Shown here: in pieces, positions 8,129 through 53,421 of the stretch | Numbering within the stretch: the first letter of the stretch is position 1 | Layout: every line of letters starts with the position of its first letter | NCBI RefSeq assembly: GCF_900129175.1 | Contig: NZ_FQUI01000010.1 | Location: 1-57,882, forward strand | DNA: 57,882 bases | Origin: Marinitoga hydrogenitolerans DSM 16785 | GTDB lineage: Bacteria > Thermotogota > Thermotogae > Petrotogales > Petrotogaceae | Direction of reading: 5' to 3' | Notes under the pieces: generated by a model | The model's input: the letters and a program-made list of their open reading frames with translations, nothing else | What the model was told of the DNA's origin: nothing | Database searches by the model: none | Made by a program: the position numbers and the translations under genes

Positions 8129-8150
8129 GTAATAAAAATCCTACAACTCC

Positions 8151-8223
8151 CTTCCTATAGTCAAACAGTTTACGGCTGTTTGGTAGAAACTCCCGAGCCA
8201 TATTCTCAGGATTATATAGGAAG
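8151..8223 (-). ncRNA. Purine riboswitch aptamer, guanine-type
   Basis: The minus strand carries the conserved purine aptamer: P1 CTTCCTATA (8223-8215) with TATAGGAAG (8159-8151), then TATAATCC, ATATGGC, GTTTCTACC, the CCGTAAA loop and GACTATAGG. The base in the J3/1 segment GACTA that sets specificity is C, as in guanine-binding members; adenine switches have U (GATTA). With the downstream terminator it forms a transcriptional OFF switch for the NCS2 permease. Confidence 0.95.
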
Positions 8224-8301
8224 ATAAATATTATCAACTTTTTCATACAAATATTACTAAAATTCCATTAATTTCATCTATTTAGAAAGAAAATATTTTC
8301 A

Positions 8302-52628: not shown

Positions 52629-52657
52629 TTGACAAAATATTTTTTTTATGATATAAT
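52629..52657 (+). promoter_or_regulatory. Near-perfect sigma-A promoter behind the ATPase operon
   Basis: TTGACA (52629-52634), exactly 17 bp, TATAAT (52652-52657): both hexamers are consensus. It starts 7 bp after the subunit D stop. Transcription would begin near 52664 and meet a terminator within about 40 nt. Confidence 0.75.
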
Positions 52658-52677
52658 TAACAATGAGAGTTGTTTTT

Positions 52678-52706
52678 ACGACCTGGAATTTTCAGGTCGT
52701 TTTTTG
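52678..52706 (+). terminator. Intrinsic terminator after the ATPase operon
   Basis: ACGACCTG-gaatttt-CAGGTCGT (52678-52685 with 52693-52700) is followed by TTTTTTG. It ends the ATPase operon and would also end any short RNA from the promoter at 52629-52657. Confidence 0.88.
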
Positions 52707-52793
52707 TTTTCTATGGGATTTGAGCATCTTAAAAATTTTATTGTTCGATAAAATTATGTTATAATTTAGATGTTTAAAAACATACGCTTACGA

Positions 52794-52983
52794 TGTCTAA
52801 AAAGTCAAATTCACTCAGACAGCTTGATTGCTAATCCTTAAAATTATTTATTCTCAGCCGTCGCTCAAACAATACATCGTGTATTGTTTCGCTCAAAATT
52901 ACATCCATGTAATTTTGACGGCTTCCATTCATAATTTTAAGGGCAATCTTCGAGTCTTCGTTTCATTTGAGACTTTTTAGACA
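52794..52983. repeat. 190-bp nested inverted-repeat element (MITE-like or structured RNA)
   Basis: Outer arms TGTCTAAAAAGTC (52794-52806) and GACTTTTTAGACA (52971-52983) are perfect inverted repeats. Inside are GATTGC/GCAATC (52826-52831, 52943-52948), CCTTAAAATTAT/ATAATTTTAAGG (52836-52847, 52931-52942) and AGCCGTC/GACGGCT (52856-52862, 52917-52923). The core holds two hairpins: AAACAATACA-tcg-TGTATTGTTT (52867-52889) and AAAATTACAT-cc-ATGTAATTTT (52895-52916), each preceded by CGCTCAAA. The folding is continuous and multibranched. No ORF is present. I do not recognise a named family; a non-autonomous mobile repeat or a structured RNA both fit. Confidence 0.8.
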
Positions 52984-53007
52984 ACCTAAATATATGCTAA
53001 ATATAAT
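52978..53007 (+). promoter_or_regulatory. Candidate mgsA promoter using the edge of the repeat element
   Basis: TAGACA (52978-52983), an 18-bp spacer and TATAAT (53002-53007) precede mgsA. The -35 is the last six bases of the 190-bp inverted-repeat element, so the element may supply it. Confidence 0.5.
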
Positions 53008-53028: not shown

Positions 53029-53421
53029 ATGATAAATGTTGCTTTAATAGCTCATGATAAGAAAAAATTGGATTTAGTCATGTTTGTAAAAGAATGGAAA
53101 CACGTTTTCAAAAAATGTAATTTATATGCTACTAATTCTACAGGAACTTTAATTGAACAAAAAGTTGGTTTGAAAGTAACAAAATTTGCTTCTGGTCCAT
53201 ATGGCGGTGATTTACAAATAGGTGCTATGATAACAGCTGGAAGTATGGATTTTGTAATATTTTTACGAGATCCTTTAACTGCTCAACCACATGAGCCTGA
53301 TGTTTCTGCTTTAATGAGAGTATGTGATGTTCATAATATCCCTCTTGCTACTAATTTAGCTACGGCAGAAGGTCTTGTATTAGAAATTGAAAAAAAAATT
53401 CCTATAGCGGAAGGTGAATGA
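53029..53421 (+). CDS. mgsA: Methylglyoxal synthase
   Basis: The 130-residue protein has the MgsA signatures: [10 protein letters not shown]-like start ([11 protein letters not shown]), [21 protein letters not shown] with the catalytic Asp (D61), and [14 protein letters not shown]. It converts dihydroxyacetone phosphate to methylglyoxal and phosphate, a bypass that relieves phosphate limitation in glycolysis. GGAGGG precedes the ATG. The gene follows the structured element directly and overlaps the next gene by 8 bp. Confidence 0.96.

Follow-up and report, generated by a model that had tools for sequence, protein, structure and literature searches.

The window, the 57,882-nt stretch of the Marinitoga hydrogenitolerans DSM 16785 genome analysed as a whole, carries a short, highly folded repeat upstream of mgsA, the methylglyoxal synthase gene (53029–53421, + strand; NCBIfam NF003559/TIGR00160, above cut-off). 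A sequence-only reading had described a nested inverted-repeat element at 52794–52983, and its parts lie where that reading placed them. These are the perfectly pairing 13-bp outer arms TGTCTAAAAAGTC (52794–52806) and GACTTTTTAGACA (52971–52983), nested arms (e.g., 52836–52847 with 52931–52942), two core hairpins (52867–52889 and 52893–52918), each preceded by the shared tag CGCTCAAA, and, upstream, a TATAAT (52760–52765) and the palindrome ATGTTTAAAAACAT (52770–52783). The element contains no ORF, as was also claimed, at a threshold of 80 aa. The limits needed partial revision: the arms are correct, and comparison with homologues sets the true ends slightly wider, at 52789–52988 (+ strand, ~200 bp), adding the terminal TA bases of the family.

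The outer arms are terminal inverted repeats (TIRs), the right one (− strand) a perfect 13-bp inverted match to the left one (+ strand), and both are the same as the ends of resident insertion sequences (ISs). Just outside the element lie the two copies of a probable decayed target duplication, ACATACGCT (52780–52788) and, read from the sequence, ATATATGCT (52990–52998), which agree at 7/9 positions and may match by chance. Between the arms, a multi-branched conserved core spans 52811–52960 on the + strand (171 bits with covariance model R1). Its two-hairpin junction is closed by a helix of AGCCGTC (52856–52862) with GACGGCT (52917–52923). The first apical hairpin has the loop ATCG in the window copy and ATCC in most relatives; the second has the loop CATCCATG, which is an ATGGAT hexaloop on the − strand. 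The minimum free energy of the 216-nt region is −62.7 kcal/mol on the + strand and −75.5 kcal/mol on the − strand (z = −8.9 and −9.2), and none of 200 dinucleotide-preserving shuffles was equally stable. The fold is thus beyond chance on both strands.

The mgsA leader

An extended −10 box of mgsA, TGTTATAAT, lies at 52757–52765, and its TGnTATAAT form is recognisable in most congeners, ~35 nt ahead of the mgsA start codon. Given this box and the start codon at 53029, the element fills the mgsA leader: it sits between promoter and Shine-Dalgarno (SD) site and extends the leader from ~25 to ~255 nt. The element is missing upstream of mgsA in all six Marinitoga congeners. If mgsA is transcribed from that promoter and through the element, its mRNA is predicted to begin with a long folded leader, and mgsA may be affected. 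The right end of the element may also supply the −35 box of a second mgsA promoter, since TAGACA of the right TIR is followed, after 18 nt, by a TATAAT in the flank (52978–53007, + strand, 11/12 matches), and such sites number just 12 over both strands of the entire window. At other family copies TATAAT is not enriched 16–18 nt from the TIR. We therefore reject a general hybrid-promoter role for the TIR and regard the pattern as a local possibility at mgsA only.

Further upstream, directly after a V-ATPase D-subunit-like gene, the window holds a consensus promoter (TTGACA-17-TATAAT) ~20 nt before a terminator hairpin (52678–52700). This pair, at 52629–52710, has a similar counterpart upstream of mgsA in most congeners and may encode a very short RNA.

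Copies, ends and partner insertion sequences

The suggestion that the element is a dispersed repeat was borne out. BLASTN finds more copies in its own genome and in all six other Marinitoga genomes, and none in 54 genomes outside Marinitoga. A covariance model derived from 20 cores recovers at least 182 copies across the seven Marinitoga genomes: at least 5 in G000, 1 in G001, 36 in G002, 26 in G003, 41 in G004, 72 in G005, and 1 in G006, all lower bounds because assemblies break at repeats and the number of candidates had an upper limit. Outside Marinitoga, among 103 Thermotogota genomes, the model yields only five weak full-length matches, all in G010, which represents another genus of the same family. 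These come from a repeat present there in six copies, whose ends differ but whose nested helices likewise close on a pair of hairpins (ATCCATCCGTGGAT and GAAAAACATCCGTGTTTTTC); this shared architecture, together with the loops, suggests homology to the Marinitoga core. A search of viral contigs, phages, and plasmids returned no match, and carriage by a phage or plasmid was rejected on that basis. Within the literature searched, whose scope excluded subscription papers, we found no report of a Marinitoga or Thermotogota MITE. The element is one copy of an apparently unreported gene-less mobile family found throughout Marinitoga. In one copy (L166, G000:C45) the core is split by a foreign segment of ~160 bp.

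The window copy and its close relatives share A-type ends of the form TAnnn-TGTCYAAAAAGTC (family TIR, TAnnnTGTCYAAAAAGTC). Flanking duplications of 8–11 bp are found in 44 of 52 A-end copies, beginning about 3–5 nt outside the TGTC/GACA, whereas the window copy has only its 7/9 match. The longest string shared by the two flanks averages 9.6 in A-end copies, against 5.6 in a null of mismatched left and right flanks. Identical ends bound ISs coding for DDE transposases (Pfam DDE_Tnp_1, 1.1e-8). These partners resemble IS5/IS982-like ISs in their ends and DDE domain; their partial proteins score below the curated NCBIfam cut-off of every family, IS982, IS5, and IS4 included, so any assignment to one IS family is tentative. 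The element's own genome contains nine protein matches to the IS transposase, mostly partial or at contig ends, and no intact full-length IS is assembled in this 87-contig draft, which breaks at IS ends.

The earlier proposal of a mobile repeat is upheld by the dispersal of copies, by their TIRs, by the target duplications seen in relatives, by vacant orthologous sites, and by autonomous ISs with matching ends. Very probably, the window element is a non-autonomous DNA transposon (MITE) that was moved by an IS5/IS982-like DDE transposase and inserted downstream of the mgsA promoter. From the matching ends we infer that resident ISs mobilise A-type elements in trans. Their transposase would recognise the TGTCYAAAAAGTC ends and move the element, duplicating ~9 bp of AT-rich target, often immediately upstream of a gene start; in M. 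hydrogenitolerans such an insertion would have fallen downstream of the mgsA promoter. What sits uneasily with a plain MITE is the core, as covarying helices with conserved loops exceed what a MITE needs.

A-type copies favour gene starts, 24 of 52 having an SD and start codon within 90 nt, compared to 2 of 41 B-type copies (described below; p = 6e-6), which adjoin gene ends; promoter and orientation figures throughout come from ±1-kb loci and simple SD/ORF rules. A target preference of the A type for −10 boxes was dropped, as the target duplications are merely AT-rich. Two A-type loci in G005 stand apart. In L054 (1501–2320; G005:C2:34277 onward), 820 bp between A-type TIRs include a GPR1/FUN34/YaaH-family gene (PF01184, 1.1e-41), as if these ends were able to move a passenger gene. 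In L036 (G005:C1:44996), an A-type left end adjoins an ORF that has a P-loop-like motif and, judged by eye, looks ATPase-like.

The same core also occurs between other ends. Many core copies in G003 and G004 carry unrelated B-type ends (CAGTTTGTAGACAAA... and CAGACTGTTGACAAA...), and in G001 B-type ends flank an IS1182 transposase, recognised by its N-terminal (3.9e-12) and C-terminal (4.5e-13) pieces. Two or more unrelated sets of transposon ends thus enclose the folded core, which makes the family unusual. At least 15 B-type copies, counted by eye, have a rho-independent terminator hairpin on both sides, with a different hairpin at each locus. IS1182-type copies at L179–L194 and L215–L225 (G004 and G003), with the same terminator hairpin on both sides, represent natural duplications of a whole stem-loop. 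Copies with end types C and D, in G004 and G002, frequently sit within B-like elements at a position that recurs, which points to amplification of composites. Elements nested centrally in other elements, at recurrent positions, are seen at L170–L177, L209–L211, and L228–L245.

The shared core and how its pairing is kept

Covariation, whose absence the sequence-only reading had named as evidence against its proposals, is strong. The window copy was aligned (MAFFT) with 43 representatives sharing no more than 93% identity. Of the paired cells, 96.5% are complementary, compared to 72.9% after shuffling. Covariation scores 0.651, whereas shuffling gives 0.215 and sliding 0.187 or less. With the window copy's own structure the score is 0.463 against 0.165. 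All four Watson-Crick forms occur at outer pairs ~150 nt apart. Within the nested helices, the twin apical hairpins have near-invariant CATCC loops and CRCTCA junctions, and conservation is higher in unpaired columns (0.80) than in paired ones (0.74).

A structured RNA, the other proposal of that reading, fares poorly as the reason for the fold. No Rfam family matches the element at its gathering score; the only match in the window is a purine riboswitch elsewhere (8138–8239, − strand). Over 34 well-aligned pairs, the element has 1425 Watson-Crick, 17 GU, and 14 AC cells in + strand letters, and same-phylum purine riboswitches handled similarly have 584, 29, and 3. The GU/AC contrast (17:14 versus 29:3; Fisher p = 0.0017) is indicative, as the cells are few and non-independent, the pairs were picked as well aligned, and there is one control family. 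If the RNAalifold structure, with its additional helix of doubtful register, is used in place of these pairs, the counts are 61 GU and 21 AC on the + strand and 16 and 9 on the − strand. The near-equal GU and AC counts over the 34 well-aligned pairs indicate that neither strand tolerates wobble over its complement. Unlike in the riboswitch control, these pairs show no G-U preference on either strand, so it is probably as DNA that the core keeps its complementarity, and this speaks against a functional RNA.

Two more specific RNA readings can be weighed against this result. A riboswitch-like cis-regulatory leader evolved for mgsA would fit a stable fold between promoter and start codon, but the six empty sites in congeners already contradict it, the same element lies beside many unrelated genes, and the missing Rfam match also counts against it; we consider such a leader most unlikely. 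A CsrA/RsmA-binding element, which once transcribed would serve as a mobile CsrA site or sponge, has more in its favour. Both − strand apical hairpins read C-A-N-G-G-A-U-G, presenting an ANGGAX hexaloop on a stem, the high-affinity form for CsrA (PMC4005645), and they lie 27–29 nt apart, so that one CsrA dimer could bridge both. Loops and spacing fit the published SELEX consensus RUACARGGAUGU and the bridging range of 10–63 nt, with an optimum above 18 (PMC7652899). Of 44 representatives, 31 have two copies of CATCC(N)TG and 11 have one, all 44 give a more stable RNA from the − strand, and B-type right ends read TTGACA-16-AATAAT into the − strand. All eight genomes tested encode csrA, but Thermotoga maritima does too, so its presence does not discriminate. 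Against CsrA binding, substitutions show no G-U preference on either strand, and neighbouring genes run mainly along the + strand (38 versus 17), so their mRNAs carry loops without GGA; the window copy, moreover, retains one of the two sites. The CsrA reading of the loops is therefore disfavoured, and we judge it improbable.

If the core is kept as self-complementary DNA, as it appears to be, with hairpins bearing conserved loops and junctions, either something would recognise the folded single strand or the palindromes would be repaired to perfection; the transposase has no obvious need for a conserved core. The second course could operate without selection, through quasi-palindrome correction, in which replication switches template from one arm to the other; the core would then be only passenger DNA. 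Nearly all cells are Watson-Crick and GU and AC are equally rare, as DNA-level correction would give, but compensated changes occur even in arms ~150 nt apart (columns 8–156 and 9–155), and unpaired bases are the more conserved, with loops and junctions invariant beyond what such correction explains. We regard it as possible, though rather doubtful. Recognition would instead make the core a module under selection, a folded single-stranded DNA identified by its CATCC loops and its CRCTCA junctions. This module would have picked up transposon ends of unrelated kinds on two or more occasions, IS5-like in one case, IS1182-like in another, and probably of other types as well. Such a module would be older than the genus, because the other genus has the same two-hairpin architecture with other ends. 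We put this forward tentatively, as a conjecture that may well prove wrong.

Relation to known elements and significance

The window element moves as an ordinary MITE would. Like it, bacterial MITEs such as Correia elements and QMITE are short, AT-rich, TIR-bounded, gene-less, and intergenic, are mobilised in trans by ISs, give folded transcripts, and sometimes carry promoters (PMC10969869), as may be the case here. The Marinitoga elements differ from these in genus, in IS partners, and in a covarying multi-branched core common to families with unrelated TIRs. REP/BIME palindromes, tagged GTAG or CGTC (PMC3733652), are also tagged hairpins in many copies, whereas the Marinitoga tag is CRCTCA, the unit is nested and ~150 nt long, and the ends are of DDE-transposon type. 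IS1272, of the IS1182 family that partners the B-type copies, likewise targets stem-loops; it is reported to replace them, with duplication of the whole stem-loop drawn as an alternative pathway b (PMC5678879). B-type copies keep a terminator hairpin on both sides, which corresponds to pathway b.

The shared folded core, probably kept at the DNA level, is the interesting part of this apparently unreported superfamily. IS1182-type copies offer natural cases of an insertion that duplicates an entire terminator hairpin. A covarying core without an RNA-like G-U pattern gives a handle on whether the upkeep of a mobile palindrome takes place at the DNA level and on what carries it out. For Marinitoga itself, this is an abundant repeat family, with at least 72 modelled copies in the top genome, that reshapes gene leaders and terminators.
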